NCBI GenBank assembly: GCA_021793275.1
Contig: JAJYTC010000006.1
Location: 1-58,577, forward strand
DNA: 58,577 nucleotides
Direction: 5' to 3'
DNA from: Deltaproteobacteria bacterium
Lineage (GTDB): Bacteria; Desulfobacterota; Syntrophobacteria; Syntrophobacterales; Syntrophobacteraceae
Shown here: positions 11,921-32,011 of the stretch, piece by piece
How positions within the stretch are numbered: the first letter of the stretch is position 1
Layout: every line of letters starts with the position of its first letter
Notes under the pieces: model-generated
What the model was told of the DNA's origin: nothing
What the model saw: the letters and a program-made list of their open reading frames with translations, nothing else
The model's database searches: none
Made by a program: the position numbers and the translations under genes

Positions 11921-13081
11921 ATGCCTCGCAGTATAGTTCACCTGCAGATTCCCGATTTTTGTACGGCTGTCGAAGAACTCAGGCGGCCCGAAATGAAAAG
12001 ACTGCCGCTCGTTTTGGCGCAAGCGGGCGAAAGGGCCCTCATCCAGGGTGTAAACGGCCATGCGAGAAAAGAAGGCATCCGCGAGGGCATGCCGCTCTAC
12101 CTGGCGCGCCGCCTGTGCCGCCGGCTTCATGTAATGGACTCCGATTTTTATCATTACCGGGAAAAACACCTGGAGATCGTGCGGGAATTCGGGTCCTGTT
12201 CTCCGCTTGTCGAAGGCGGAAGCCCTGGAAGCTACTTCATAGACATTACCGGGACCCGCAGGCTTTTAGGACCAGGCCCGGACCTGGCCTGCCGGATGGA
12301 AAACGAGCTTGGCAGGAAAATGGGCCTTCGGGCGAGGATCGGGCTTGCCTCAAACAAGCTGGTAAGCCAGGTTGCAGCACATTGCATCGAACCGGGGGAC
12401 CTGAGTTTTATTTTCCCGGGCAACGAGGAATCGTTTCTTTCGCCTCTGCCCGTGGATTTTCTTCCCGGCGTAGGCGAGGTTACAGCTTCAAAGCTGGCCG
12501 GCTTCAATATTTTGAGGATAGGCCAACTGGCATCTTTTCCCGTAGACATGCTGGCGGCGGTTTTCGGAAGGAGCGGTGAGCGTCTTCTCAAGATTGCAAA
12601 AGGTCTGGATATCTCTCCGGTGTTTGTCTCCAGGCAGGCCCCGCGGATATCCGTCGCAAAAATTATGGAAAGAGATGAAATCGATCCCGGACGGCTGGAA
12701 TCGGCTTTGTTCCAGCAGATTGAAGAGGCGGGATGGGAGCTTCGCCGGCATAATCGCTGCCCCGGGAGCTTCCGGCTCGAAATCCGCTATGCCGACGGCA
12801 TGTCGGTCGATACCAGGAAGCGGGTCCCATCGTGGTCCGTCCAGGCAGACCGGTCCCTTTTTCAATCGGTTCTCCCCGCCTTTTACAAGCTTTTGCGCAG
12901 GCGCGTGGCAGTGCGCAGGCTGGTGATCGAGTTCTCGGACCTCGTTATGCCCTTCGCACAGCTTCCGCTCTTTACGTGGGAAAGCAGGAGGGGTTCAAAA
13001 GAGCGCGACCTGCAGAAAGCCCTGGATTCGATGCGCATGAAATTCGGGAAAAAGATCATTGCCTGGGCAAGAGTAGCTTGA
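11921..13081 (+). CDS. imuB: ImuB-type catalytically inactive Y-family polymerase homologue
   Basis: 386 aa with the Y-family layout. Aligned by eye to DinB, the catalytic acidic residues are gone: the first aspartate is Q9 (IVHLQIPDF), and the DE pair is G103-S104 (GSPGSYFID). A canonical beta-clamp binding motif, QLPLF, lies at residues 347-351. Loss of catalysis with retention of the clamp motif is the mark of ImuB, which recruits the error-prone polymerase DnaE2 to stalled forks. The downstream dnaE2 begins two bases after the stop, so the two are coupled. The usual third partner ImuA (RecA-like) is not encoded upstream; the divergent neighbour is cheW. Confidence 0.85.
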   Translation: MPRSIVHLQIPDFCTAVEELRRPEMKRLPLVLAQAGERALIQGVNGHARKEGIREGMPLYLARRLCRRLHVMDSDFYHYREKHLEIVREFGSCSPLVEGGSPGSYFIDITGTRRLLGPGPDLACRMENELGRKMGLRARIGLASNKLVSQVAAHCIEPGDLSFIFPGNEESFLSPLPVDFLPGVGEVTASKLAGFNILRIGQLASFPVDMLAAVFGRSGERLLKIAKGLDISPVFVSRQAPRISVAKIMERDEIDPGRLESALFQQIEEAGWELRRHNRCPGSFRLEIRYADGMSVDTRKRVPSWSVQADRSLFQSVLPAFYKLLRRRVAVRRLVIEFSDLVMPFAQLPLFTWESRRGSKERDLQKALDSMRMKFGKKIIAWARVA

Positions 13082-13083
13082 AA

Positions 13084-16000
13084 ATGGACCCCGATTTTGT
13101 CCACCTTCATGTCCATTCCTTTTATTCCATGATGCATGGGGTAAATTCGCCCGAGGTGCTTTGCAGGGAAGCTAAAAAGGCCGGCTTTTCCCATATTGGC
13201 CTGACGGATTTAAACGGTTTTTACGGTCTCGTCAATTTTTTGGAGGCAGCCTCTGCAACCGGGATAAAACCCATCGTAGGGGCCCAGGTGAAAACGGAGC
13301 AAACATCTGCGGTAATTCTTGCCAGGACCTCCGAGGGGTATGAAATTCTCTCGGAGATCATTACCCGACGCCATACCGAGAATGACTTCCCGCTCCCGCG
13401 AAGCTTTCCGGAAAAAAGCCGCGATCTTGTTGTTCTAAGCGCTGATCCGGAACTGCTCAAAACATTGAAAAATCGCGTAGAATGCTTTTTTGAAATTGTA
13501 CCGGGCCCCTCCGACCGAAAGCTTCTGCGTATCGCAAAGGAGATCGGCGTAGCGCCTGCCGCCACAAATGCGGTCCATTTTGCCGGTCGAGACGATTACC
13601 CGCTCCACAGGCTCCTTCGGGCCATAGATCTTAACAAAACCATGGGATTGCTTGCGCCGGGAGATACTGCGACCGCCGGCCAATGGATGAAATCAGCCCG
13701 CGAGATGTCGGCATGCTTTCCTGACTGCCCGGAAGCTTTGGCCAACACGGTCAAGATTGCTCGAGCCTGCCACACCCCACCGAACCGGTTTCGCACCGTT
13801 TTCCCTGATTATCTGGACAAAAACGAAGACCACCTGGCGCTCCTTGTCTCGGAATGCCGCAAGGGCATCGGCGTGCGCTACGGCAAGACCTGCCCGAAGA
13901 TCGAAAAGCGTCTCGATGAAGAACTCGAACTTATCCGCTCGAAGGGGTTTGTGGATTATTTCCTCATCGTCGCGGACATCGTTCGCAGGCGCACGATTCA
14001 CTGCGGTCGAGGAAGCGGCGCCGCAAGCCTTGTCAGCTACCTTTTGGGCATAACCCATGTCGATCCCATCCGGCACAACCTCCTGTTCGGACGGTTTCTA
14101 AATCCCGAAAGAAAGGACCTTCCGGATATCGACGTCGATTTCCCCTGGGATGAGCGCGAGGGGCTTTTTGAGGAAATAACGGCCCGGTACGGAAGCCAAA
14201 GGCTGGCCTTTATCAGCAACCATACAGGCTTCCGGGCCAGGGCTTCGGTGCGCGAAGTGGCGAAAGTTTACGGCATACCGGCCTTTGAAATAAAGGAGGT
14301 TACCCGCAGGATGAGTTACTGGAGTTCGCGGAAAATAGGCGAACATGTAAAGACACACCCCAAATTCCACAACTTTCACCTGGATGCGCCATGGCCGGAA
14401 ATCATCGACCTTGCTTCGCGCCTGGAATCGATACCGCGAAACATCTCGACCCATTGCGGCGGCGTGGTGATCGTTCCGGACCGGGTATCGCGATACGTTC
14501 CGGTCCAGATAAGCGCGAAGGGAGTGCGAATAATTCAATGGGAAAAGGACCAGGCCGAGAAGGCGGGCCTCGTAAAAATAGACCTTCTGGGCAATCGCTC
14601 GCTGGCCGTGATCCGCGATACCATTGAGGCGGTTCGAAAAAATTCGGGGAAAACAATCGATTATGCGAACTTCAACCCGGTTGACGACCCGAAAACCAGG
14701 GAAATCATCAGCCGGGGGAACACCATGGGCGTCTTCTACCTGGAATCTCCCGCCATGAGGCTTTTGCAGGCAAAGGCGGGAAGGGGCGATTTCGAGCATG
14801 CCGTAATCCACTCCTCGATTGTTCGTCCGGCGGCAAACCGGTTCATTCGCCAATACCTGGCGCGTCTTCACGGAGAGCCCTTCGAGCCGCTCCATCCAAG
14901 CCTCGAAAAAATCCTGTCTGAAAGCTACGGAATTCTGGTCTACCAGGAGGACGTCGTGCAGTGCGCCATGGCTCTGGCCGGTTTTTCATGGGGCGAGGCC
15001 GACAGTTTGAGAAAGGTGATAAGCAAAAAGAGCCGGGAACAACTGTGGGACTACAGGGCGCGTTTTGAGCGGGGATGCGCTCAAAACGGTGTGGCGGCCG
15101 AGGTGGTGGAAAAGGTCTGGGACATGTTCACCTCTTTTGCCGGCTATTCTTTCTGCAAACCGCACTCGGCTTCCTATGCGCTTGTGAGCTACAAGTCCGC
15201 ATACCTTAAAGCGCACCATCCGGCGGAATTCATGGCAGCGGTCATTTCCAACGGAGGCGGCTATTACAGTGCTTTCGCCTACATTTCGGAAAGCCGGCGA
15301 ATGGGGATCGAGGTGCTCGAACCGGACGTAAACGAAAGCAACCTGGCCTTCAGAGGATGGGGCAAAACGATACGAACGGGTTTTCAACAACTTCAGGGGA
15401 TAAGAAGAAGCGGACTGGAAGCCATTATCGGGGAAAGAAGCCGGGGCGGGCGCTTTTCATCGATCGAGGAACTTCTGGAAAGACTCCAGGGCCGATTGAC
15501 TCTTTCAGACGCTTCGATACTCGCCAAAAGCGGCGGACTCGACTCGATTGCCGGGCCTTTTAACCGCCCGCAACTCCTTTGGCTCATCGAAGCGTGGTTT
15601 AACAGGTACAACGCGCCGCGCGTTTGTCAAACATCCCTTTTCCGCCCCCCGCCCATAAAAATTCCCCCTCTTCCGGATTTTTCCCCGGATAGAAAGCGGG
15701 CGCATGAATCCGAAACCATGGGGTTTCCTCTGTCGGTCCACCCCCTGGAACTTGCCGCGCCTTTTTTTCGAAGGCTTGGCCAACCAACCGTGCCGGCATC
15801 CGCTATGGCCCGATACGTCGGGAGAAAAATTCGCATGAAAGGATGGCCGGTGACCAGAAAAGAAGTTTTTACAAGGGAGGGGGAGGAAATGGAGTTTTTT
15901 ACCTTCGAAGATGAAACCGGAATTTTTGAGACGGTCTTTTTCCCCAAGCCATTCAGACGATTTTGCCAGGATCTTGATATGAACCATGCATACCTGCTCT

Positions 16001-16188
16001 ACGGCCCGGTGGAAAGCGAATTCGGCGTGGCTTCGCTCAGTGTGGAGCATGCTTGCAGGGCGCCACTGGAGGCTTACCGCGACATAAGCAAGGTCAAAAG
16101 CGCGGGGAACTGTGCCCACCGCACCCCCACGGCGCTGCAAGCATGCGGAACGGAGACAACCCCCAATCCTCTTTTTAATATACACTAG
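13084..16188 (+). CDS. dnaE2: error-prone DNA polymerase DnaE2 (ImuC)
   Basis: 1034 aa, the usual DnaE2 length. An N-terminal PHP domain begins HLHVHSFYSMMHG. The C-family polymerase core has the catalytic PDIDVDF near residue 350, the QEDVVQCAM region and FCKPHSASYALVSYKSAYL. Helix-hairpin-helix and OB domains follow (FEDETGIFETVFFP). DnaE2 performs damage-induced mutagenic synthesis with ImuB. The ATG at 13084 follows the imuB stop directly; a longer frame overlapping imuB is unlikely. The last 30 or so residues are encoded by a copy of repeat family A and flanking DNA, and do not look like part of the OB fold. Confidence 0.93.
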   Translation: MDPDFVHLHVHSFYSMMHGVNSPEVLCREAKKAGFSHIGLTDLNGFYGLVNFLEAASATGIKPIVGAQVKTEQTSAVILARTSEGYEILSEIITRRHTENDFPLPRSFPEKSRDLVVLSADPELLKTLKNRVECFFEIVPGPSDRKLLRIAKEIGVAPAATNAVHFAGRDDYPLHRLLRAIDLNKTMGLLAPGDTATAGQWMKSAREMSACFPDCPEALANTVKIARACHTPPNRFRTVFPDYLDKNEDHLALLVSECRKGIGVRYGKTCPKIEKRLDEELELIRSKGFVDYFLIVADIVRRRTIHCGRGSGAASLVSYLLGITHVDPIRHNLLFGRFLNPERKDLPDIDVDFPWDEREGLFEEITARYGSQRLAFISNHTGFRARASVREVAKVYGIPAFEIKEVTRRMSYWSSRKIGEHVKTHPKFHNFHLDAPWPEIIDLASRLESIPRNISTHCGGVVIVPDRVSRYVPVQISAKGVRIIQWEKDQAEKAGLVKIDLLGNRSLAVIRDTIEAVRKNSGKTIDYANFNPVDDPKTREIISRGNTMGVFYLESPAMRLLQAKAGRGDFEHAVIHSSIVRPAANRFIRQYLARLHGEPFEPLHPSLEKILSESYGILVYQEDVVQCAMALAGFSWGEADSLRKVISKKSREQLWDYRARFERGCAQNGVAAEVVEKVWDMFTSFAGYSFCKPHSASYALVSYKSAYLKAHHPAEFMAAVISNGGGYYSAFAYISESRRMGIEVLEPDVNESNLAFRGWGKTIRTGFQQLQGIRRSGLEAIIGERSRGGRFSSIEELLERLQGRLTLSDASILAKSGGLDSIAGPFNRPQLLWLIEAWFNRYNAPRVCQTSLFRPPPIKIPPLPDFSPDRKRAHESETMGFPLSVHPLELAAPFFRRLGQPTVPASAMARYVGRKIRMKGWPVTRKEVFTREGEEMEFFTFEDETGIFETVFFPKPFRRFCQDLDMNHAYLLYGPVESEFGVASLSVEHACRAPLEAYRDISKVKSAGNCAHRTPTALQACGTETTPNPLFNIH
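16101..16132. repeat. dispersed GC-rich palindromic repeat, family A, copy 2 (inside the 3' end of dnaE2)
   Basis: CGCGGGGAACTGTGCCCACC followed by GCACCCCCACGG. It corresponds block by block to the copies at 331-362 and 56611-56643. It lies within the open frame of dnaE2 and supplies part of the C-terminal tail. Confidence 0.6.
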
Positions 16189-16530: not shown

Positions 16531-18345
16531 ATGATAAGTGAGACCCTATTCGTATTCATTTTGCTGGCGATAACCATTATCTTGTTTGCCGGCGAACTAT
16601 TGAGCTTAGAGGTGGTGGCTGTTTTGGTGGTGCTGGCCCTCATGCTAAGCCACGTGCTCTCGCCCGCCGAAGCCTTGTCCGGCTTCGGGAATCCATTGGT
16701 TCTCCTTATCGCCGGGCTGTTCATGGTTGCCGAAGGCCTGTTCCGTACCGGGGTGGTTTACCGCATCAGCAATTGGGTCATGAAAGTGGCCGGGACCAGC
16801 CAAACTCGCCTGCTGGTCATACTCATGCTGGTGGTGGCGATACTATCCAGCTTTATGGAAAACAATGGCACGGTGGCTATCTTTATCCCGGTAGCCATTA
16901 ATCTGGCCGATAAAGTAAACATCAGCCCTGCACGGCTGTTGATGCCTGTATCCATTGCTTCTCTTCTCGGCGGCATGCTAACCTTGATCGGTTCGCCACC
17001 CAACCTGGTTGTGGCTGCTGAACTAACCCGCAACCATCTGGCTCCCTTCAGGTTTTTTGCCTACAGCCCCGTCGGCCTGTTAATTTTAATGGTGGGAGTA
17101 GGCTATATGGCGATCTGGGGATGGAAGCTGCTTCCCCAAAATACGGACAGCAAGGAAAAGTCGAAAACCCGCTGGTCTATTTGGGAGCTGCTCGATGCTT
17201 ATGAACTCACCGGCCAATTTCACTGTCTGCACATCGAGCGAAATTCGGGTCTAATCAATCAGACGCTTGAGCGGGCGATGGTGGCGAGCAGATACGGCGT
17301 GACCATTGCGGGGTTGAGACGCAAGGGTCGAGGTATACCGGTAACCCCTCAGACTGAACTGCGCCCGGGTGATAGAATCTTTGCAGTGGGATCGGAGGAA
17401 CGGATCAAGGTGCTCAGCAAATCTGAAAACCTGAGCCCTTTAATATTGGGCGAAAAGGAGAAGAAATTAGTCCCCGGAGAACTGGGATTAGTGGAAGTTC
17501 TCGTGCCGCCTCGCTCAAGGCTCATCGGCAGCACGCTGCGCGAAATACACTTCCGGGAACTCTACGGGCTTTCGGTCTTGGGTATTTTGCGTCTGGGGGA
17601 ACATCTCAAGCATGATCTCATCGATGCCCCTGTGGCTTTGGGAGATTCAATGTTGATGGCCGGAGGCTGGCAACAGATTGGTTTGCTTCAGGCTGAACGG
17701 GACGATTTCCTGGTTCTTACCATTCCCCAGGAGATGAGCGAGGTGGCCCCCAGGCGGGCCAGGGTGTGGTGGGCCCTCGCTATCTTTAGTACGATGCTGG
17801 CGCTCATGATCTTCGAGCTGGTACCTAACGTGGCGGCAGTGCTTCTAGCGGCCCTGGCCATGATTCTAACCGGTTGCCTCAGTCTGAAGGATGCTTATGA
17901 TTCCATCAACTGGCAGAGCCTGGTGGTTATTGCCGGCATGCTGCCCATGGCTGAAGCCCTGGATAAGACGGGAGGCGTCAACCTCATCGTGCATCAAGTA
18001 GCGGCCCTGGGTAAACTGGGACCTTATTCCCTTATGTTCGGTCTCTTTGTCATCACGGCCGGGTTGAGCCAGTTTATATCAAATACCGCCGCCGCGGTCC
18101 TGCTGGCCCCTATAGCTCTGAGTTCGGCCAAAATGCTGGGAGTATCGCCTTATCCCATGCTCATGACCGTAGCCATTGCCGCATCTACAGCTTTCGCCAC
18201 CCCGGTGGCCTCGCCGACCAACACTCTGGTTTTAGGGCCGGGCAGTTACCGCTTCATTGATTTTCTAAAAGTGGGCCTTCCCCTGATTGTCTTGAGTATG
18301 CTCATTGCCCTGCTGGTAGTGCCGGTGATATTTCCTTTAAGGTAG
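16531..18345 (+). CDS. SLC13-family (CitT/DASS-like) permease with internal RCK_C/TrkA_C domains
   Basis: 604 aa membrane protein. An N-terminal block of about five or six hydrophobic segments (1-210) contains the IGSPPNLVV motif. A cytoplasmic insert (about 210-410) holds two RCK_C-like units (ATLxRAxVASRYG and PRSRLIGSTLREIHF types). A second hydrophobic block then contains ATPVASPTNTLVLG. The paired S-P-P-N and S-P-T-N signatures are those of divalent anion/Na+ symporters of the DASS group. Likely substrates include sulfate or C4-dicarboxylates, but sequence alone cannot decide; sulfate uptake would fit a sulfate reducer. The ATG at 16531 has GAGGA five bases upstream and is preferred to the TTG at 16519. 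Confidence 0.88.
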   Translation: MISETLFVFILLAITIILFAGELLSLEVVAVLVVLALMLSHVLSPAEALSGFGNPLVLLIAGLFMVAEGLFRTGVVYRISNWVMKVAGTSQTRLLVILMLVVAILSSFMENNGTVAIFIPVAINLADKVNISPARLLMPVSIASLLGGMLTLIGSPPNLVVAAELTRNHLAPFRFFAYSPVGLLILMVGVGYMAIWGWKLLPQNTDSKEKSKTRWSIWELLDAYELTGQFHCLHIERNSGLINQTLERAMVASRYGVTIAGLRRKGRGIPVTPQTELRPGDRIFAVGSEERIKVLSKSENLSPLILGEKEKKLVPGELGLVEVLVPPRSRLIGSTLREIHFRELYGLSVLGILRLGEHLKHDLIDAPVALGDSMLMAGGWQQIGLLQAERDDFLVLTIPQEMSEVAPRRARVWWALAIFSTMLALMIFELVPNVAAVLLAALAMILTGCLSLKDAYDSINWQSLVVIAGMLPMAEALDKTGGVNLIVHQVAALGKLGPYSLMFGLFVITAGLSQFISNTAAAVLLAPIALSSAKMLGVSPYPMLMTVAIAASTAFATPVASPTNTLVLGPGSYRFIDFLKVGLPLIVLSMLIALLVVPVIFPLR

Positions 18346-18523
18346 CAAACAAGAGTCTATTTTTCCGTCATTCCGGCTCCGGACGGGCGGACGGTCCGAG
18401 GCATCAACGCAGGTTGTAGTCATCCAGGTGAATTTAATCAACAAGGAGCTGTTTCGGCATGTCGGTAAGAGCCTTATCTTAGTGCGATGACATCCAGACC
18501 GGGGCCTGAGAAAGGAGGACCGA

Positions 18524-18832
18524 ATGCAAACCTTCATTATGCTTACCCGGTTATCGCCTGACGCGGTGAAATCGCCCAAATCCCTGGAGGAAATTGAAAA
18601 AAAGGTAATGGACAAGGTAAGAACGGAGTGTCCCGACATCGAGTGGGTCCATAACTTTGCCATACTTGGACCCTATGACTACGTGGATATTTTCCGTGCG
18701 CCGAATGAGTCGAGCGCCTTCAAATTATCCACTCTCGTCCGCACTCTTGGTCATTGCACAACGGAGGTTTGGGGCGCGACGGAGTGGGCGAGGTTCAAAG
18801 ATGTGCTCCATGTTCTGGCAAAAGCGGCCTAA
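18524..18832 (+). CDS. GYD domain-containing protein
   Basis: 102 aa small alpha/beta protein with the signature GPYDYVDIFRAPN that names the GYD family, and the typical opening FIMLTRLSPDAV. The family is widespread, cytoplasmic and of unknown biochemical role. A strong AAAGGAGGA precedes the ATG. It stands alone between the permease and a convergent reductase gene, with a possible terminator just downstream. Confidence 0.88.
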   Translation: MQTFIMLTRLSPDAVKSPKSLEEIEKKVMDKVRTECPDIEWVHNFAILGPYDYVDIFRAPNESSAFKLSTLVRTLGHCTTEVWGATEWARFKDVLHVLAKAA

Positions 18833-18849
18833 GCCTTTCGAAGCTGGAA

Positions 18850-18875
18850 AGATGGGACATTGCTTCCGTCTTTTT
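18850..18875 (+). terminator. candidate terminator after the GYD gene
   Basis: AGATGGGA, a short loop, then TCCGTCT running into TTTTT. The stem is about seven pairs including one G-U and a bulged G. It lies 18 bp after the stop codon. Confidence 0.45.
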
Positions 18876-19011
18876 GCAAGAACTTTACGGCCGGCCATGC
18901 CATTTTAGGTCCAGGCTGTTATTCGGCCCCGGTTCAACGGATGTAATGAATCGTTGACCTCTCAGAGTACCCATGGGCGGGCTTTGCGACAAACGGCGCT
19001 CTTTCTGAAAT

Positions 19012-19962
19012 TCAGATGCTATGCATACGCCTGCCCAATTCACTGAAGTATCGATTCCCGAGCCATGATGCATTCTCTTTGGCCCAATCGGTGAGGCGGG
19101 TCTTGCCGGCAGGGGGCGAATCCACATACAGGAGGCCCGCCATCAGTCCCTTGATTTCATCGCGGGTAACAAGTCTATCACCGAGCAGACCGCCGATTAT
19201 AAAGGCAGCCACAAAACCGATGGAAGGCGGGATGGAAACAATCGGCCTCGGCTTGTCGATAATTAGCCCGATTGTCTCTACAAGCTCCCGGTAATGAAAA
19301 ATCTCAGGGCCGATCGCGTTTATAATGCTGTTTTGCTCCTCTCTACCCTTCTCGACGGCAAGTTCGGCAAGATCCTCCACATAGATTGGCTGGAGCCGGT
19401 AGCCCCCGTCGCCAAAAACGCCAAAGACGGGAAACTTTCTCAGAAGAAACGCAATGTTGTTTATGAGAATGGATTCATCGCCGAACAGCACGGCGGGTCT
19501 CAGGATGGAATAGGAGATGCCCGAGCTTACCAGCAGCTTTTCTATTTCGGCCTTGCATCTGAAGTATTCAAGCTCCGAATTTTCTGAAGGATTCGTGATG
19601 CTGATGTGCACCACCCGTCTTATGCCTGCTCTTTTGGCGGCATTGAAGAGAATCGCGCTGTTTGCTACTGCGTCCGCGTATGTGAAGCTCACCGCGCCCC
19701 GGTAGTTGAACCGGACGTAATAGGTATTGTAAAGGACGGATACCCCTTCCAGAGAGCTTTCCAACCCCTCCGGTTTGTCAAAACGCAAAGGATGCGCCGT
19801 TACCCTTCCTCCGAAGGGATCATGCCGGTAAGAGGAATTGGTAAGAGTTATTACCCGCTGGCCGGCGCTCAGGAGGCGCCGGGCAATGTATCTTCCCGAA
19901 AATCCGAAGGCTCCCGTTACTGCTTGAATCTCTGACCCGGGCAAAGGCGCACTTCCTCTCAT
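19012..19962 (-). CDS. NAD(P)-binding epimerase-like protein (atypical SDR, NDUFA9-like)
   Basis: 316 aa. The N-terminal Rossmann motif is TGAFGFSGRYIARRLL (GxxGxxG). ILRPAVLFGDES and YRLQPIYVEDLAE are segments typical of the complex I NDUFA9-like and SDR_a5 atypical short-chain dehydrogenases. The classical YxxxK catalytic pair is not evident (FRCKAEIEK stands near the expected position). Proteins of this group are often nucleotide-binding rather than clearly enzymatic; function is unknown. The C-terminal region has hydrophobic stretches that could contact membrane. Monocistronic, divergent from the molybdoenzyme gene. Confidence 0.8.
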   Translation of the reverse strand: MRGSAPLPGSEIQAVTGAFGFSGRYIARRLLSAGQRVITLTNSSYRHDPFGGRVTAHPLRFDKPEGLESSLEGVSVLYNTYYVRFNYRGAVSFTYADAVANSAILFNAAKRAGIRRVVHISITNPSENSELEYFRCKAEIEKLLVSSGISYSILRPAVLFGDESILINNIAFLLRKFPVFGVFGDGGYRLQPIYVEDLAELAVEKGREEQNSIINAIGPEIFHYRELVETIGLIIDKPRPIVSIPPSIGFVAAFIIGGLLGDRLVTRDEIKGLMAGLLYVDSPPAGKTRLTDWAKENASWLGNRYFSELGRRMHSI

Positions 19963-20355
19963 CTTCCAAGTTGACCACGCGAGACGGTAATCACGGCGGT
20001 CCCGCTCTTCGCCTGTCTGATGCGAAGTTTTTCGAATTATGAACTATAATCAAAATGTAGTCATATATAGAACCTCGGTCAAATCTTGAAAAATATGGGT
20101 CGAGCGTTTTAGTTCGAGCGTCCGATTCCGGGTGGCCGGGCCTGAATCTCTTTGAAAAAGGATGCAACCTGGCGTAAACTAATCTATATCTTCATGGCGC
20201 TTTCCTTTTCTTTGGCGATTTCTTTATCAGCACACGCTGAGGTGAAAAGCGCCTTTTTCTGCCTTCTCAGGGACTTACACAAAATGTTTCACACTGTTGC
20301 GGCATTTGAATCTGATTGTATTCCTGGTAGTGATAAATCCAAAGGAGACTGATCG
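19963..20355. other. divergent intergenic region upstream of the molybdopterin oxidoreductase gene
   Basis: 393 bp. It contains an AT-rich block at 20030-20070 that may hold promoters for either side. A frame from a TTG at 20152 to a stop at 20352 encodes a signal-peptide-like segment (IFMALSFSLAISLSAHA) followed by unremarkable sequence. It lacks a ribosome binding site and ends three bases before the molybdoenzyme start, so it may be a relic of an exported protein rather than a gene. Confidence 0.35.
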
Positions 20356-22434
20356 ATGGCGGAAGAAATTCGATGGGCCAAGACCCACTGCGCGCGTATG
20401 GATCACGGTGGCTGTGCTCTGTTGGTAGGCGTCCAGGGCAATGAGATCGTTCAGATCAAGGGAGATCCCGAGGGCTATCTGAGCAGGGGTTATACCTGCT
20501 ACAAAGGCAGAGTGTCGGCAGACCGCCTCTATCACCCGGATCGTCTCAGGTATCCGCTCAGGCGGGAAGGCAAACGGGGTGAGGGAAAATGGCGGCGAAT
20601 CTCCTGGGAGGAAGCCCTCGATGTAACAGCGACCAATCTTCTCGCCATCAGGGAAAAATATGGCGCACGGGCGGTGGGCTTTGGCGCCGGAATGCCAAAA
20701 GGCCTCGAACACTTCGTCCTGATTCGCCTTGCCAATATTTTCGGCTCCCCCAACGTGATCGCTTCGCAGGACGTATGCCACGCGCCCAGGGAGGTTACCG
20801 GCGTTCACACATGCGGGTTCTATCCGGTAGCCGATCTGCACAACCCCACCAAACTCATCCTTTCCTGGGCCAGCAATGTACTGTCGACCAGCGAAGAAGG
20901 GCAGATCGCCAGCCTCATCACGGAACAGCTCAAAAACGGCGCCAAGCTGATAGTGGTCGATCCACGCAGGACCGAACTAGCCGAAAAGGCGGATCTATGG
21001 CTGCAACTAAGGCCCGGAACGGCCCAGGCGCTCGCCTTGGGCTTTCTTCACGTCATTATCGAAGAATCCCTCTACGACAGCGACTTCGTTGAAAAATACA
21101 CCTACGGCTTCGCCGACCTCGCGAAGCAGGTGAAACCCTACGATCCTCAAACTGTAGCCGGAATTACCTGGGTTTCTCCCGATCTTATCCAAAAGGCCGC
21201 AAGGCTCTACGCGACGGCCCGGCCCGCCGCCCTCCAGTGGGGCAACGCCATCGAACATGACCTCAACGTGTTCGATGCCGCCAGGTCTCTGGTCTGCCTC
21301 ATGGCCGTCAGCGGCAACCTTGAAGTCCCGGGAGGCAACATAAACGCGCACGATCCAGGTATAATGGGACTGGGTCCATTCGTGCGGGCCGATCTCATCC
21401 CGGACAAACGCAAGGAAATGATCGGCGCTTTCCATGGCACGATCCCGAAAATGATGACGGTTCCTCCGGCATATTTTCGCAAAGCGGTGCTCGATGGGAT
21501 CCCATACCCCGTAAGGGGATACTACGGCATGTGCACAAATCCGCTGGTGGCATGGGCCGACAGCGAGGTTACCTATAAAGCATTCATGAGCCTGGATTTT
21601 ATCGCCGTGGCGGAAATCTTCATGACTCCAACCGCCTCTTTGGCGGATATCGTCTTTCCGGTAGCCCACCAGTATGAGATGAACGATATCGGTCACTACG
21701 GAATAGGACACGGCATGATCGTGGCCCGGCCCAAAATCGTCGATCCCCCTGCGGAGTGCTGGCCGGACATAAAAATTATGAACGAACTGGGCAAACGGGT
21801 ATCAGACCCTCAATACTGGCACGATGACTTCGAAGAATTCGTCGAGGACGTGGTAAGACCCTGCGGGCTGACATACGCAGAGTTTGCCTCCAAAGGCTGG
21901 CTGAAGGGCCCGGATCTTTTCGGACTCCATAAGGAAAAGGGCTTCCGCACGCCCACCGGAAAGGTCGAGTTGAAACTGAGCACCGCGGAAAAATTCAAGC
22001 TGAGGCCGCTGCCCGAATTTACCGGGCTTCCGGAAGAAGACGATCCGGAGTATCCGCTGATTCTTATCAGCGCCAAGAGCCGCTATTATCTTCTCTCATC
22101 CTACCGCTGGATAGAAAAACTCCGCAAGAAACGACCCTATCCGATCGTTGAGATTCACCCTGAAACGGCCGAGGCCCTTGGCATCGCCGACGGCGACGAG
22201 GTCATCGTCTCCACCAGATACGGCGAAATAACTCAGACAGCGCGGGTCACCGACATTGTCCATCCCAGGGTGGTGAGCGCCGCATTGGGCTGGTGGTTTC
22301 CGGAAAGCGATGCGGCAGGCCAGTTCGAATGGCGCAGGTCAAACTTCAATATGCTCACTTCGATAGGAAAGCTGGGGCGGGAATTCGGGACACCCAACCT
22401 CAGCAACCTGCCTTGCAGAATACGAAGGGCATGA
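20356..22434 (+). CDS. molybdopterin-dependent oxidoreductase (DMSO reductase superfamily) with an Asp-substituted Fe-S motif
   Basis: 692 aa. The N-terminal Fe-S domain has C12-x3-D16-x3-C20-x27-C48, where the superfamily expects Cys (or an initial His) at all four positions; the second ligand is Asp. The Mo ligand is probably C141 in SQDVCHAPREVTG. Later come the bis-MGD binding domains (ILSWASNVLST, IVVDPRRTELAEKADLWLQLRPG) and the C-terminal dinucleotide domain (IEIHPETAEALGIADGDEV, split as IHPETAEALGI and ADGDEV). It has no Tat signal, so it is probably cytoplasmic. No Fe-S or membrane partner is adjacent. It may resemble the acetylene hydratase/thiosulfate reductase-like group, but its substrate is unknown. 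AAAGGAGA precedes the ATG. Confidence 0.88.
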   Translation: MAEEIRWAKTHCARMDHGGCALLVGVQGNEIVQIKGDPEGYLSRGYTCYKGRVSADRLYHPDRLRYPLRREGKRGEGKWRRISWEEALDVTATNLLAIREKYGARAVGFGAGMPKGLEHFVLIRLANIFGSPNVIASQDVCHAPREVTGVHTCGFYPVADLHNPTKLILSWASNVLSTSEEGQIASLITEQLKNGAKLIVVDPRRTELAEKADLWLQLRPGTAQALALGFLHVIIEESLYDSDFVEKYTYGFADLAKQVKPYDPQTVAGITWVSPDLIQKAARLYATARPAALQWGNAIEHDLNVFDAARSLVCLMAVSGNLEVPGGNINAHDPGIMGLGPFVRADLIPDKRKEMIGAFHGTIPKMMTVPPAYFRKAVLDGIPYPVRGYYGMCTNPLVAWADSEVTYKAFMSLDFIAVAEIFMTPTASLADIVFPVAHQYEMNDIGHYGIGHGMIVARPKIVDPPAECWPDIKIMNELGKRVSDPQYWHDDFEEFVEDVVRPCGLTYAEFASKGWLKGPDLFGLHKEKGFRTPTGKVELKLSTAEKFKLRPLPEFTGLPEEDDPEYPLILISAKSRYYLLSSYRWIEKLRKKRPYPIVEIHPETAEALGIADGDEVIVSTRYGEITQTARVTDIVHPRVVSAALGWWFPESDAAGQFEWRRSNFNMLTSIGKLGREFGTPNLSNLPCRIRRA

Positions 22435-22486
22435 AATCCTCTCTGGATCGGAACTGCGAAGGGAGGCGCTAAAATGAGGGAGCGCC

Positions 22487-22780
22487 ATGTGGGACATGAA
22501 CGAGGTGACAAAAGTCGAGTACCGTGGTGCATATATCTACCACATCACATTCGATGACGGCCTGGAGGGAGATGTTGATTTCTCGGTTTACCTGTCCAGA
22601 GGGCCGATTTTTGAGTCGCTTAAGAACCCGGAGCTTTTTTCCAAGGCGACCGTGCAGGGCGGCGCCATCGGATGGCCAAACGGAGCGGATATTGCCCCCG
22701 AAACGATCTATGACAATCTGCTCAGTGCCGAGAGGTCACTCGAAATGGATACGCAAGAAGAGCGGGAGCACTTAGTCTAA
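22487..22780 (+). CDS. DUF2442 domain-containing protein
   Basis: 97 aa. The core pattern, [16 protein letters not shown] then [17 protein letters not shown], is the DUF2442 signature. Members are often found beside DUF4160 proteins and are suspected antitoxin-like or nucleic-acid-associated small proteins; no DUF4160 gene is present here. GAGGGA lies five bases before the ATG. Its 3' end overlaps the end of the convergent cupin gene by four bases. Confidence 0.85.
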
Positions 22781-23106
22781 GCGCTACCATAAAACACTGC
22801 CAGCCAAACGGTTTTCCGGCCCGGGTCGGTCCATTCCACCCGATGCCGCAAATGGGCCGGAATATCGACCCAGTCCCCGGGTCTCAAAACAAGGATCTCC
22901 TGATCGCCCTCAAATCTCAGTCCCGCGGTCCCGCAAAGCACCATGACCCATTCGGATTCCTCCTGATCGTACCAGAATCCCTCCGGCGAACGGTTGGAAT
23001 CCGAAATGATCCTTTCGATCCTCACTTTGCCCGAATCGATCAGAGTTTCGAAAATTTCCTCCGGCGAGCTTTGCGGCACAGCCGTGTAAATGTTTCCCTT
23101 CCTCAT
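22777..23106 (-). CDS. cupin-fold protein
   Basis: 109 aa from the ATG at 23106, which has GGGGAGAGG nearby. An in-frame start at 23184 would place the N-terminus inside the glnA terminator and is less likely. The cupin pattern shows as [17 protein letters not shown], then [20 protein letters not shown], with E and H residues in the metal-binding positions. Small cupins of this kind bind a metal and a small ligand; no substrate can be assigned. It is downstream of glnA but separated from it by a strong hairpin terminator. Confidence 0.85.
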
Positions 23107-23121
23107 GATCGCCTCTCCCCG

Positions 23122-23169
23122 GAAATAAAAAGTCCCCCCGAACGGATTTTTCGCCGGCCGGGAGGACTT
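23122..23169 (-). terminator. rho-independent terminator of glnA
   Basis: On the minus strand AAGTCCTCCCG (23169-23159) pairs with CGGGGGGACTT (23140-23130), eleven pairs including one G-U, and is followed by TTTTATTT. It lies about 23 bp after the glnA stop. Confidence 0.8.
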
Positions 23170-23191
23170 CAACACCAAAGTCAATCAAAGC

Positions 23192-24604
23192 TTATATATC
23201 GAAGTAAAGCTTGTATTCCATGGGATGCGGGCGCATGCGCACGGCGTCCACTTCGTTCTTGGTCTTGTACTCGATCCACATGTCGATGACGTCCTGCGTG
23301 AAAACATCGCCCTTGAGCAGGAACTCATGGTCTTTTTCGAGGCTCCGGAGGGCTTCGTCGAGAGAGCCGGGAGTCGATGGAACTTTGGCCAGCTCTTCAG
23401 GGCTCAGGCCGTAGATGTCCGCATCGAGAGGCTCGCCCGGATCGATCCTATTTTCAATGCCGTCAAGGGCAGCCATCAGCAGCGCGCTGAAAGCAAGGTA
23501 GCCGTTGCATGAAGGATCGGGGAAACGGACCTCGAGACGCTTCGTCTTGGGAGAAGCCGAGTACATCGGGATACGTATGCTGGCGCTGCGGTTGCGGCTC
23601 GAATAGGCAAGGTTCACCGGAGCTTCATAGCCGGGCACCAGGCGTTTGTAAGAATTGGTGGTCGGGTTGGTTATGGCGCACAAGGCCGGAGCGTGCTTCA
23701 AAATGCCGCCCGCCGCCCAAAGGGCCATTTGGCTCAATCCGCCGTACTTGTCGCCGGCGAAAAGAGGATTGCCTTCCTTCCAGATGCTTATATGGGTGTG
23801 CATGCCTGTGCCGTTGTCGCCAAAAAGCGGCTTTGGCATGAGAGTAACCGTCTTGCCGTGTTTCCTGGCCACATTCTTCAGGACGTATTTGTACCACGCA
23901 AGATTGTCGGCCATTTTTACCAGCGGCGCCGCCTTCATATCGATTTCGGCCTGGCCGCCTGTCGCCACTTCGTGGTGCTGACATTCCGTCTCTATACCCA
24001 CCTGCTCCATGGTCAGAATCATATCGGTACGGATATCCTGCTGCGAATCCATGGGAGGCACGGGGAAATAGCCTTCTTTGTACCGGGGCTTGTATCCGAG
24101 GTTCGGGTTCTCGACCCTGCCTGTGTTCCACTGCCCTTCGACTGAATCTACATAGTAGTAGCTGCAGTTGACCGCACTGTCGAACCGGACATCGTCAAAA
24201 ATGAAAAACTCGGCTTCAGGACCGATCCAGACCATATCGCCGATGCCTGTGAACTTGAGATATTCTTCAGCCTTTTGAGCGATATTCCTGGGGTCCCGAG
24301 TGTATTTTTCCATCGTCACCGGATCGACTATATTACAAATCATCGAGAGGGTCGGAACGGCCATAAACGGATCCATTACCGCAGTGTTCGCGTCCGGAAT
24401 GATCAGCATATCGCTGGCGTGAATCGGCTGCCAGCCCCGGATGCTCGAGCCATCGAAACCGTATCCGTTTTGGAAATCGCTTTCGCCCAACTCATGCATG
24501 GGAACTGAAAAGTGCTGCCATACGCCAATAAAATCCATGAACTTGAAATCTACTATCTTTGTTCCGTTTTCTTTTGCAAAAGCCAATACTTCTTTCGGGG
24601 TCAT
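23192..24604 (-). CDS. glnA: glutamine synthetase, type I
   Basis: 470 aa, the usual GSI length. Recognisable segments are the beta-grasp start, [12 protein letters not shown], the catalytic [12 protein letters not shown], the [17 protein letters not shown] loop and NRSASIRIP. The adenylylation-region tyrosine is present in [11 protein letters not shown], so control by adenylylation is possible though no glnE lies here. It makes glutamine from glutamate, ammonia and ATP. The ATG at 24604 follows AGGAGGAG; an upstream start at 24637 is less likely. A near-consensus sigma-54 promoter lies upstream and a terminator follows. Confidence 0.96.
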
Positions 24605-24661
24605 ATTCTCCTCCTGAGAGTCCTCAAAATAGGGCATTCAAAAAATCGGACAGGTATGTCT

Positions 24662-24678
24662 AAGCAAATTGCTTGCCA
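24662..24678 (-). promoter_or_regulatory. sigma-54 promoter of glnA
   Basis: Read on the minus strand: TGGCAAGCAATTTGCTT. This fits TGGCAC-G-N4-TTGC, with GG and GC exactly ten bases apart. The predicted start of transcription is about 12 bp further on, roughly 45-50 bp before the glnA ATG. It implies activation by an NtrC-type protein under nitrogen limitation. Confidence 0.8.
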
Positions 24679-24924
24679 AGGTCAACAATTTTCTTCCTCT
24701 CCGCTTCCCTTCTTCCATGCAGGCCTTTTTCAACAAATGGAACTTGGAACTAAAAAAAAACATTTTCGTTACATATTGACCAAATTCTATGGGAAAAGCG
24801 CGGACAATAAAGACACCTTCGATTCTAACCTCCTGAAAATTCGGCTGAATATGTTATTTGAAAATACCGTCCGCCATAGAACAAAAATGTATCGTTTGAT
24901 TGCTCCGTTTCACTCCGCAATAAG

Positions 24925-24975
24925 TTAAAAGTCGAAAGTTGAAAGTCGAAAGACAAAAGGCAAAAGGCCAGTAGC
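24925..24975. repeat. purine-rich short-unit repeat, family B, copy 2
   Basis: Reiterated AAAGTCGAAAG / TTGAAAGTCG / ACAAAAGGCAAAAGG units between glnA and glnD. The first part matches, in reverse complement, the right half of the segment at 3586-3697. The AAAAGGCAAAAGG part also recurs, reversed, at 41655-41690. Confidence 0.55.
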
Positions 24976-25010
24976 TAAAGGATCGGATTTCCTTTACTTT
25001 TGCCTTCCCC

Positions 25011-27599
25011 CTACACCGCCGCAAGACACGAAAGAAGCTTTTCTCTTACCCTTTCATGCATGTCGTAGCTCATCAGCTTCTCGCCGCTCAGGTCCGTAAC
25101 GTAAAAAACATCCGCGACCTGGGCCCCCGGTGTCGATATCTTTGCGAGCTGGATATTTAAATCCAGTTCGAACAGCCCCTTCGTGATCGCATGCAACACG
25201 CCGGGCCGATCCCATGTATAAACTTCGATCAGGGTGTAAAAATCGGAAGCGTCCTCGTCAACTATTACCCTGTCCTCCTTGCGCGGATGGCGCCTGGTCT
25301 CCAGTACCGAGGGCCTTCGCCTTTCGTCCAGTATTTCATCCAGGTATGATGAATTTCGCAGTACTCGTGCCAGGTCGGCTTCCACCCTGCCCCACAGTTC
25401 GCCGGGATGTAGGGGATCGGGGATTCGCTCGACCCTCAGTATATCACAAACTACGCCCGATTCGCGGGTGAATATGTCGGCCGATAAGATATTCAATCCC
25501 CGCACCCAGAGCACCCCTGTAATCAATGCGAAAAGCCCGGGTCTGTCGCGCATCATGACCGTGGTCTGCCACATCTCACCCTCGACCGGTTCGGCCCTGA
25601 AGCAAACGGGGCGGCCCGCCAACTCCTTTTCCATGCCGTAGTGCTTGAGAATATCCGCCGGTTGCTGCGATAAGAGGTACCGGAATGAAAGCGTCTCCAT
25701 CCATTCGGCTATCTTTTCGCTCTCGGCCGGGTCGGCCAGAAGCGACATAACTTTTTCCTGCGTCTTCAAGGTGCGAGCTTCGATGTTTTCCGGCTGAAGG
25801 TCCGGGCGCATCAGCAGCCTGTCGACTTTGAAGAAAAGTTCTCTAAGCAGTGAGGCTTTCCACTCGTTCCATGCCGCCGTGCCGGTCGCACGGCTGTCGG
25901 CTATTGTAAGCAGGTAGAGAAGAAGCAACCGCCTTCGGTCCTTGATGGTTACAGCACATCGCGCTATGGGCTTTTCGTCCATGAGATCCCGCTTGAGAGC
26001 AGTTTCAGCAAGAATCAGATGCTGTTCGATCAAAAAACAGAGAAGGCTTTTTTGCTCCTCGTCGAGTCCCATCCTTGTCGCAATTTCCCCGGCCAAACCT
26101 GCGCCGCGAATCGAGTGGTTCTTTCCGCCCCCTTTGCCTATGTCGTGCAGAAGCCCGGCCAGGTAAAGGATACGTCTTTCCTCGGAACTCATCAGCACTG
26201 CACCGCTTTTGAGCGGTCCTTCGCCCTCGAGTTCGCCCGCTTCGATCAGGTGCAGCTCCCTCACCGTACGCAGAAGATGCTCATCGACCGTATAAACATG
26301 GTAGACATCATCCTGGACCTTGTAGCGCACGCCCGAGAATTCAGGGATGAACGTCTGCAAAAACCCGGTCTCCAGCATGGTATTGAGCACCGTAAAAGAA
26401 TACCGCGGATCAAGCAGGATATCGAAAAACTGCCGGATTGCCTCCGGATTTCGCCTTTCCCTTTCTTGAAATCCCCCTAAATTTTCCCGAATTATCCTTC
26501 CTGAATTATGGTGGAAGTGGGCGCCGGAACGCGCCGCCTGCCAGAAAAACCGCATGAGCAAGAGCGGATCTTTTCCTACCCACTCCGGGTCCATGAAGTG
26601 GAGGTGCTTACCCTCCAGAAGAAAGGGGCCGGGCAAAATTCGCCTGCGCGGGCGGAAGCCGGGAAATTTACTCTTGGACTCCCCGAGTTTTTCCAGAAAA
26701 AAAGAGGTCGTTCTGCTGACGCGTGAAGTGTTCCGATAATAGAGGCGCATGAAAGCTTCTACCGCAGAACCTTCGGCGCCGGCCATACAGCCCATCCGCT
26801 TTGCAATAAGTTCCTGTTCGGGAAAAAGCAGCCTGTCCTGTCTTCTCCCGCCCAACTGGTGCAACTGGAGCCTGACCCGCCACAGGAAATCGTAGGACTG
26901 GTCGAGCCAGAGCTTTTCGGGCTCCGTAAGCCATCCATGCCCGAGCATCGCCTCATGCGACGGGTCCTGGAGGTAAACGATCCCTGCCCACCTGATCGTA
27001 TGCAGGTCGCGCAGCGCGCCCACGCCATCTTTAACGTTCGGCTCGAGCAGATAGGCGCTCTCGCCGAACTGCCTGAGCCTTTCCTCCCTGTACGCCGTCA
27101 AGTGTTCGAGAAATCGCCGCTTTCCCGTGTTGCCGAACAACTTGAGAAAAGACCCCTTCCAGTCGTTAAAAAACTCGGCGTCGCCGGCTATGAATCCGGC
27201 TTCAAGATAATTGGTCAGGATGGAAAAATCGTTTTGAACCATATTACGGACCATGGAGACCGAAGCGGTGGCGTGTCCTACTTCGAATCCGCTGTCCCAC
27301 AAGCCGTATACCAGGTCGTGGACAAACTCCGAGAGCTGCGGAGGAAGCCGTTTTTTATAAAGGAATAGGAGATCGATGTCTGAAGCGAAGCTGAGTTCTC
27401 CTCGGCCTATACCGCCTACGGCCAGCAGGGCCCAGCCCTGACAAGGCGCGTTTTCGTCCGGCGCGTTTCCAAGCGCCTCCCGCAAATGGGACGAATAAGT
27501 TCGCGCTGCCAGCAACCCGGGAATGTCACTGCGACATTCCCGGGTAAAATTTTCACGCAGATATTTTAGCCTTCGAACAACATTTGGATGTATAGCCAT
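25011..27599 (-). CDS. glnD: PII uridylyltransferase/uridylyl-removing enzyme GlnD
   Basis: 862 aa. In order: a nucleotidyltransferase domain with GGIGRGELSFASDIDLLFLY near residues 62-81; the GlnD-type linker; an HD domain (YLAGLLHDIGKG near 480) for UMP removal; and two C-terminal ACT domains (MRDRPGLFALITGVLW and TWDRPGVLHAITKGLF) that sense glutamine. It uridylylates PII at low glutamine and de-uridylylates it at high glutamine. It lies 107 bp downstream of glnB on the same strand, across a strongly structured intergenic element. The ribosome binding site is weak (GAATTGAG), so expression may depend on that element. Confidence 0.96.
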   Translation of the reverse strand: MAIHPNVVRRLKYLRENFTRECRSDIPGLLAARTYSSHLREALGNAPDENAPCQGWALLAVGGIGRGELSFASDIDLLFLYKKRLPPQLSEFVHDLVYGLWDSGFEVGHATASVSMVRNMVQNDFSILTNYLEAGFIAGDAEFFNDWKGSFLKLFGNTGKRRFLEHLTAYREERLRQFGESAYLLEPNVKDGVGALRDLHTIRWAGIVYLQDPSHEAMLGHGWLTEPEKLWLDQSYDFLWRVRLQLHQLGGRRQDRLLFPEQELIAKRMGCMAGAEGSAVEAFMRLYYRNTSRVSRTTSFFLEKLGESKSKFPGFRPRRRILPGPFLLEGKHLHFMDPEWVGKDPLLLMRFFWQAARSGAHFHHNSGRIIRENLGGFQERERRNPEAIRQFFDILLDPRYSFTVLNTMLETGFLQTFIPEFSGVRYKVQDDVYHVYTVDEHLLRTVRELHLIEAGELEGEGPLKSGAVLMSSEERRILYLAGLLHDIGKGGGKNHSIRGAGLAGEIATRMGLDEEQKSLLCFLIEQHLILAETALKRDLMDEKPIARCAVTIKDRRRLLLLYLLTIADSRATGTAAWNEWKASLLRELFFKVDRLLMRPDLQPENIEARTLKTQEKVMSLLADPAESEKIAEWMETLSFRYLLSQQPADILKHYGMEKELAGRPVCFRAEPVEGEMWQTTVMMRDRPGLFALITGVLWVRGLNILSADIFTRESGVVCDILRVERIPDPLHPGELWGRVEADLARVLRNSSYLDEILDERRRPSVLETRRHPRKEDRVIVDEDASDFYTLIEVYTWDRPGVLHAITKGLFELDLNIQLAKISTPGAQVADVFYVTDLSGEKLMSYDMHERVREKLLSCLAAV

Positions 27600-30115: not shown

Positions 30116-32011
30116 ATGAGCGAATGGAAAGATAAAGTTCTACAGAGCAAAGGGAGCGAGCTTGATATTCTGCGCCAAATAGTGCGCGACGGGCTCCGTC
30201 TTTATATCGGGTCCGGCTGCGGAGAGCCTCAGCACCTGGTGCGTTGCCTGCTCAAAGTCTTGCCTGAACATCGCGATATCGAAATAGTCCAAAACCTTTC
30301 AATGGGCTCGCTTCCGCAAGACTGGAAGGCCCTGGAGGGAAATGCGCGGCTCAAGACCTTCTTTGTAGGGCCCAGATCCAGGGATGCGGTCAATGAAGGC
30401 ATGGCCGACTATATCCCGATTTATTTTTCTTCCATACCCCGTCTATTCAAGGAAGACCCTCTGTGGAAGTTCGATATAGCGCTCGTGCAGGTATCCCCGC
30501 CCGACGAACACGGTTTTTGCTCGATGGGGATATCCGTAGGCATGGACAAAAGCGCCGTCGAATCCGCAAGCATTGTTTTCGCCCAGATAAATCGCGAAAT
30601 GCCCAGGACGCTCGGGGACAGCTTTGTCCACTCGTCCCGGTTCCACTACATCGTTGAATATGACGAGCCGCTGCCCGAGATTGTTTTCCGGGAACGCAGC
30701 GCGGTGGCCGAACGCATAGCCAGATACATCTCCCCGCTGATCGAGGACGGTTCTACAATCCAGACGGGAGCGGGAAGAATCCCCAATTGGGTCCTGATCT
30801 ACCTGGAGGGGAAAAAGGACCTGGGCATCCATACGGAGGTCCTTACCGACGCTCACCTGCATCTGATCAATTCGGGCGCCGTCACGGGGCTAAAGAAAAC
30901 CTTGAACCACGGGAAAATCGTCGCGACCTACTGCATGGGAAGCAGGCAGCTCTACGATTTTGTAAACAACAATCCAGAGGTGGAGATCTACCCGACCGAG
31001 TACGTCCACAACCGCACGCTGATTCGGCAGCATCATCGGATGGTCGCCATAAATTCAGCCTTGGAAATAGATTTGAGCGGACAGATATGCGCTGAGTCAA
31101 TGGGGCACAAGGTCTACAGCGGAATCGGCGGCTATGTCGATTTTATGCAGGCGGCTTCGAGCACGAAAGAGGGAAAGGCCATCATCGTGTTGCCGTCAAC
31201 GACTTCGGACGGGCGCAAATCGCGAATCGTAAGCCATCTGACCAACGGGGCCGGAGTTGTCAGTCCGCGCAGCACGGTCAGTTATGTCGCCACCGAATTC
31301 GGCGTCGCCTATCTGCACGGTAAAACCATCCGGGAACGCGCGCTGGCCCTTATCAACATTGCTCATCCACGTTTTCGCGAGCAGTTGATGACCGAGGCCA
31401 AAAAGATTCACTACGTCTATGAAGATCAGATCGTTCCGCCCATTTACGAGCCTCTCTATCCGGGCCAGTGGGAGACTCGTCAGGTTTTTCCGCCGAACGA
31501 AAATCTCTATATCCGACCCGTCAAACCCACCGATGAGCGTTCGCTTCAGGAGTTTTTCTACGCTCTTCCTTTCGAAGACATCTATTTTCGCTTCCTCTCG
31601 GCGATGAAGGCATTCCCGCACAGAAACATCCAGGCCATGTGCAATCTGGATTACGAGCACGAAATGGCGGTTATCGCCGTAACAGGTGGAATCGGCGCCG
31701 AGAAGATCGCCGGAATCAGCAGATACATCCTGGACCAGAAAACCAATTTTGCCGAAATCGATGTTGCCGTAGCCTCCGAATGGCAGCACAAGGGAATCGG
31801 CACGTTCCTGGTCCATTATATTTCCGAGATAGCAAAAACCAAGGGTATCAGCGGACTGGTAGCTTACGTGCTGGCTGCCAACAGGGCGATGCTCGCCGTG
31901 TTCCACTGTCTTGGCTACGCGGTGCATTCGAAACTGGAGGAAGGCATATACGAAGTATCGCTGCGATTCGATCAACCGGCTCTGGCATGCCGTACGGAAG
32001 AATACAAATGA
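30116..32011 (+). CDS. acetyl-CoA hydrolase/transferase-family protein fused to a GNAT acetyltransferase domain
   Basis: 631 aa. Residues 1 to about 440 are a class I CoA-transferase/acetyl-CoA hydrolase of the 4-hydroxybutyrate CoA-transferase type (IQTGAGRIPNWVL, SGIGGYVDFMQAA, YVATEFGVAYLHGKTIRERA). Residues about 460-610 are a GNAT domain (YIRPVKPTDERSLQEFF, then VASEWQHKGIGTFLVHYI, the acetyl-CoA loop). The fusion suggests an acyl-CoA enzyme joined to an acyltransferase that may regulate it or use its product; this is inference. Similar fusions occur in fermenting and sulfate-reducing bacteria. First gene of a rightward cluster; its stop overlaps the start of the HAD gene (ATGA). Confidence 0.88.
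   Translation: MSEWKDKVLQSKGSELDILRQIVRDGLRLYIGSGCGEPQHLVRCLLKVLPEHRDIEIVQNLSMGSLPQDWKALEGNARLKTFFVGPRSRDAVNEGMADYIPIYFSSIPRLFKEDPLWKFDIALVQVSPPDEHGFCSMGISVGMDKSAVESASIVFAQINREMPRTLGDSFVHSSRFHYIVEYDEPLPEIVFRERSAVAERIARYISPLIEDGSTIQTGAGRIPNWVLIYLEGKKDLGIHTEVLTDAHLHLINSGAVTGLKKTLNHGKIVATYCMGSRQLYDFVNNNPEVEIYPTEYVHNRTLIRQHHRMVAINSALEIDLSGQICAESMGHKVYSGIGGYVDFMQAASSTKEGKAIIVLPSTTSDGRKSRIVSHLTNGAGVVSPRSTVSYVATEFGVAYLHGKTIRERALALINIAHPRFREQLMTEAKKIHYVYEDQIVPPIYEPLYPGQWETRQVFPPNENLYIRPVKPTDERSLQEFFYALPFEDIYFRFLSAMKAFPHRNIQAMCNLDYEHEMAVIAVTGGIGAEKIAGISRYILDQKTNFAEIDVAVASEWQHKGIGTFLVHYISEIAKTKGISGLVAYVLAANRAMLAVFHCLGYAVHSKLEEGIYEVSLRFDQPALACRTEEYK

Follow-up and report, generated by a model that had tools for sequence, protein, structure and literature searches.

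The window, by which we mean the whole analysed stretch of 58,577 nucleotides, carries a gene for a Mo/W-bisMGD enzyme whose position and key codons are given in Table 1, and whose neighbours encode a NAD-epimerase-type protein, a cupin, a glutamine synthetase, GlnD and PII. In its product, the Pfam domains Molybdop_Fe4S4 (PF04879), Molybdopterin (PF00384) and Molydop_binding (PF01568) follow one another in order and from end to end, all above the gathering score, and these domains, the fold and a motif of three Cys and one Asp identify the protein as a member of the DMSO reductase (MopB, bis-MGD) superfamily. A preliminary description of this DNA had placed it in the same superfamily, but had left the nearest group, that of acetylene hydratase (AH), unnamed. 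In the translation of 20356-22434 the N-terminus reads ...KTHCARMDHGGCALLV...GYTCYKG, which gives C12-x3-D16-x3-C20-x27-C48 followed by K50, and C141 lies within SQDVCHAPRE; all six of these residues are as that description had listed them. The reading frame is unbroken, and dN/dS values of 0.07-0.11 against four relatives, for three of which dS is saturated, indicate purifying selection. Its neighbours in the window include no gene for a partner subunit, in agreement with what had been reported, and none recurs consistently in 79 + 19 homologous loci; the enzyme is apparently cytoplasmic and consists of a single subunit. Likewise, no fixed operon was found in the 79 named and 19 further loci, where synteny is common to close relatives only and no operon hints at a substrate, and an Rfam search over 17000-26000 found no riboswitch (e.g. 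a Moco motif).

Table 1. The Asp-clade gene of the window and the codons discussed in the text.
Feature	Position	Strand	Remarks
Asp-clade Mo/W-bisMGD enzyme gene	20356..22434	+	692 aa, intact, no signal peptide in the sequence
C12 codon, first cluster ligand	20389..20391	+	invariant in the family alignment
D16 codon, second cluster-ligand position	20401..20403	+	Cys in all outgroups
H17 codon	20404..20406	+	aligns with catalytic Asp13 of acetylene hydratase
C20 codon, third cluster ligand	20413..20415	+	from the family alignment
C48 codon, fourth cluster ligand	20497..20499	+	x27 after C20
K50 codon, Lys between cluster and pterin	20503..20505	+	counterpart of AH K48 and FdhF K44
C141-H142 codons, Mo/W ligand and next His	20776..20781	+	FDH-like C/U-H; Ile in AH

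Homologues were gathered by whole-genome protein searches independent of the motif, and in a 102-row alignment the column of D16 is that of the second cluster Cys in FdhF (C11), in NapA and in 37/37 outgroup proteins, so that the Asp does sit in the second-ligand slot. The nearest relatives that lack the Asp read S-H-C-R-M-C-H-G-G-C where the proteins that carry it read T-H-C-A-R-M-D-H-G-G-C and, because RM and HGGC agree on either side, the change amounts to one residue inserted after the first Cys together with a replacement of Cys by Asp. The sister AH-like proteins with C-x2-C-H-G-G-C (L140-L160 in our numbering of loci) show 37-41% identity over their full length and have their conserved blocks in the same order, but differ from the Asp-bearing proteins in having four Cys ligands, a first loop shorter by one residue and, mostly, a Tyr or Phe after the metal Cys. 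Other AH-like proteins vary at these sites in their own ways. In one (L163, genome G158:C13) the first cluster ligand is replaced by Ala (SAGPGCHGGC) and extra sequence is inserted ahead of the metal Cys, which would represent another departure from the four-Cys cluster site; two more (L165 and L169, genomes G282 and G170) keep all four cluster Cys but have Ser (NMSGGPI) aligned with the metal ligand Cys141, and their metal site could possibly be Ser-ligated or open.

Among the homologues that span the motif, C-x3-D-x-G-G-C is present in 126/126 with an identity of 44% or above and in 0 of those below 44%, the boundary between Asp and non-Asp proteins being sharp, at 43-45% identity. In trees that start at residue 21, and hence leave out the motif columns, all Asp proteins fall on one branch (SH-aLRT 99 in one tree, bootstrap/aLRT 100/99 in another), which sits inside a wider AH-like group that includes acetylene hydratase. 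The motif thus defines a clade, as had been suggested for it, and the trees argue for the Asp having arisen once within the sampled AH-like group and having been fixed since. A cluster site decaying in a dying gene, as the loss of one Cys might be read, has next to no probability against an Asp that is invariant over 126 sequences, purifying selection and remaining ligands that are all invariant; here too the earlier view, that this is not simple decay, was borne out.

The clade is present in at least 48/297 sampled genomes of the window organism's phylum and extends over Syntrophobacterales, Syntrophus/Smithella, Desulfobacterales and Syntrophomonas; a pattern scan of named genomes returned 245 relatives, including Desulforhabdus, Desulfoferrobacter suflitae, Desulfonema magnum, Syntrophus, Smithella and Syntrophomonas. 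In the phylum of Syntrophomonas (Bacillota), copies with 75-80% identity occur in 5/199 sampled genomes. The Bacillota copies as a whole (L065, L066, L075, L076, L095 and L205-L209) share 71-80% identity with the window protein, and their nesting among Thermodesulfobacteriota sequences points to transfer between syntrophs of the two phyla as the source of the Syntrophomonas genes. A further copy, 89% identical, lies on a contig labelled Puia sp. (Bacteroidota; L061) and is probably a binning error. The Asp variation first noticed in the window is real, but it belongs not to one odd protein: what the sequences describe is a widespread clade without a name, in which the change from Cys to Asp is a fixed trait. 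A literature search for the motif string found no match.

By sequence and by fold, the nearest protein of solved structure is the acetylene hydratase of Pelobacter acetylenicus (Ahy, PDB 2e7z). An AF2 model of the window protein (pLDDT 92, lowest at residues 11-20, where the mean is 67) has it as best match, with Z 44.2 and an rmsd of 1.9 Å over 681 residues, followed by a match at Z 38.3. The two proteins have in common a soluble, single-subunit bisMGD build, the metal ligand Cys141, with which C141 of the window protein aligns as the Mo/W ligand it had been taken for, and the x-Lys that follows the fourth cluster Cys. Whereas acetylene hydratase has four Cys ligands (9, 12, 16 and 46) and a catalytic Asp13 that points to the metal site (PMC12096430), the window protein has Asp at ligand 2 and His at the Asp13 position. 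When AH residues are mapped by sequence alignment, Asp13 corresponds to His17 in 58/58 clade members, and Ile142, Trp179 and Ile113 to His142, Glu181 and Pro114, each invariant in the clade; Lys48 and Cys141 are retained in all members and Trp293 in nearly all. The hydrophobic ring of AH (I113, I142, W179, W293, W472) becomes P114, H142, E181, W295 and Y448 in the window protein and is not preserved as such. That a true acetylene hydratase or formate dehydrogenase (FDH) has been mistaken for something new is very improbable: for all that acetylene hydratase is the top sequence and fold match and C141-H142 resembles FDH U140-H141, the catalytic Asp13 is His, ring residues are swapped for His, Glu and Pro, and 58/58 clade members have a gap where FDH has Arg333, the Cys-His pair being present. 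Nor was any NCBIfam equivalog cut-off reached, the best model, Fdh-alpha, scoring 323 bits where 666 are needed. Judged from its sequence, the enzyme is AH-like in build, with an active site that is neither that of acetylene hydratase nor that of formate dehydrogenase.

Ferredoxins whose second ligand position is occupied by Asp interconvert readily between 3Fe and 4Fe forms, and this counts in favour of a reading in which D16 stands at the site without ligating, the cluster being either a [3Fe-4S] or a [4Fe-4S] whose open Fe binds water or substrate, possibly interconverting. The strict-anaerobe hosts of the clade and the lack of an electron-chain partner also speak for that reading. We consider it unlikely, if still deserving of some weight, since in the only solved case of the same local motif, the nitrite oxidoreductase (NXR) of the anammox organism Kuenenia stuttgartiensis, crystallography has revealed a [4Fe-4S] cluster, FS0, with the Asp bound, held by C67, D71, C75 and C115 (PMC8387239), and a merely vacant site would fit poorly with the absolute conservation of the Asp. 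A 3Fe cluster, which the preliminary description had named beside a changed cluster potential as a possible outcome, is consequently not the default expectation, and by analogy with NXR-A we expect the window enzyme to have a 3Cys/1Asp [4Fe-4S] cluster in preference to a decayed site or a cluster restricted to the 3Fe form. The authors of the NXR-A structure propose that the Asp ligand tunes the potential of FS0 (PMC8387239).

What the window protein has in common with NxrA is Asp at ligand position 2 in C-x3-D-x3-C; NxrA is NarG-like and multi-subunit, with an Asp-ligated Mo and x39 to the fourth Cys, and the window protein is set apart from nitrite oxidoreductases and type II enzymes by Cys141 at the metal-ligand position and by having no Fe-S partner gene. 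Its match to NXR (7b04_B) is weak (E 6.6e-17), and NXR is not among the Foldseek/VIA matches listed, which is no argument against a likeness at the cluster site. Because NXR belongs to the multi-subunit branch with an Asp Mo ligand, and because the match is weak, the two Asp ligations look convergent, the trees having taken in AH-like proteins without NXR. The Asp variant has a precedent in Kuenenia; the clade itself is new and has no name. Wells et al. (2023) described basal MopB lineages with AH-like best hits and a Cys metal ligand that seemed novel (PMC10100899); compared by description only, these lineages resemble the present clade, although we found no mention of an Asp-ligated motif there.

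One non-Cys ligand at the proximal cluster is also a feature of NarG and ethylbenzene dehydrogenase, whose FS0 is 3Cys/1His, with the His at the first position (PMC8840923; PMC8387239); these enzymes have an Asp Mo ligand, and their His stands at position one where the clade has its Asp at position two (PMC8840923). Such His ligation, and the invariance of H17 across the clade, could suggest H17 as second ligand, with D16 in the second shell. We regard this as improbable, as 18/37 all-Cys outgroup proteins have the same His after the second Cys, so that it is not needed as a ligand, and as the H17 position aligns with AH Asp13, which faces the metal site (PMC12096430).

Some copies of the clade lie in Mo/W islands, as far as can be told from loci that are not mutually independent and gene calls that in part go by sequence appearance only. 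In one Syntrophomonas locus (L076), moeA follows 42 bp downstream and modABC-type genes are present; the copies in L110 and L078 have ABC-transport genes and fmdE nearby, those in L074, L078, L106, L113 and L119 have formate dehydrogenase operons, and that in L106 has an AFOR gene as well. Candidate acyl-CoA dehydrogenases number at least 6 in 48/48 genomes with the clade, and 5 or fewer in about 71/249 others (Fisher p 1e-6); these counts were made by hand and are confounded by phylogeny and genome size, and we take them as only a hint that the clade is linked to genomes rich in acyl-CoA dehydrogenases.

Taken as a whole, the best explanation, to which we give a probability of about 0.6, is a stand-alone AH-like enzyme of the DMSO reductase superfamily, soluble and of the Mo/W-bisMGD type, with a 3Cys/1Asp [4Fe-4S] that acts as a one-electron relay or activation cluster and with an organic substrate. 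Its proximal cluster would be bound by C12, D16, C20 and C48, with Asp ligation as in NXR, and would have evolved from a C-x2-C-H-G-G-C ancestor through one inserted residue and the change of Cys to Asp, with a single origin and subsequent fixation. Most likely redox-tuned, the cluster could relay single electrons between the metal site (C141, H142, H17, E181, K50) and a soluble carrier, e.g. ferredoxin, such a carrier being proposed because the gene comes without an Fe-S, haem or membrane subunit; alternatively, it might do no more than set the redox state in which the enzyme is active, as in AH. The hosts would be anaerobes rich in acyl-CoA dehydrogenases, that is, syntrophic oxidisers of fatty and aromatic acids and complete-oxidising sulfate reducers, and the enzyme would most likely act on an organic substrate of those acid degraders, by redox or hydration chemistry. 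A bolder proposal is that these AH-like enzymes form a class of their own and catalyse a new reaction in the syntrophic oxidation of fatty or aromatic acids, a labile Asp-bound iron opening the cluster for catalysis or gating beside the Mo/W site, beyond electron relay; this strikes us as a long shot.

With this clade, Asp has come to stand at the proximal cluster of bis-MGD enzymes for a second time, apparently independently of the first. Its enzymes, strictly anaerobic and partner-free, would form with NXR, which serves high-potential nitrite oxidation, a natural pair for testing the purpose of Asp ligation. The hosts, syntrophs and complete-oxidising sulfate reducers, are central to methane-forming food chains.

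Several other genes were noted in passing. The genome of the window (L005, L007) encodes several bis-MGD proteins, two of them with an in-frame TGA, which are possibly selenocysteine formate dehydrogenases, and in G007:C136 a gene of the clade stands head to head with a second bis-MGD gene. Within the window, 11921-16188 encodes a Y-family (IMS) polymerase and then a PHP/DnaE-type polymerase, an arrangement resembling the ImuB-DnaE2 mutasome cassette; at 30116-32011, a C-terminal GNAT acetyltransferase domain is fused onto an acetyl-CoA hydrolase/transferase; and 36352-38574 encodes an HdrA-like FAD/Fe-S protein whose C-terminus is an FlpD (MvhD) domain, followed by more genes on the same strand.
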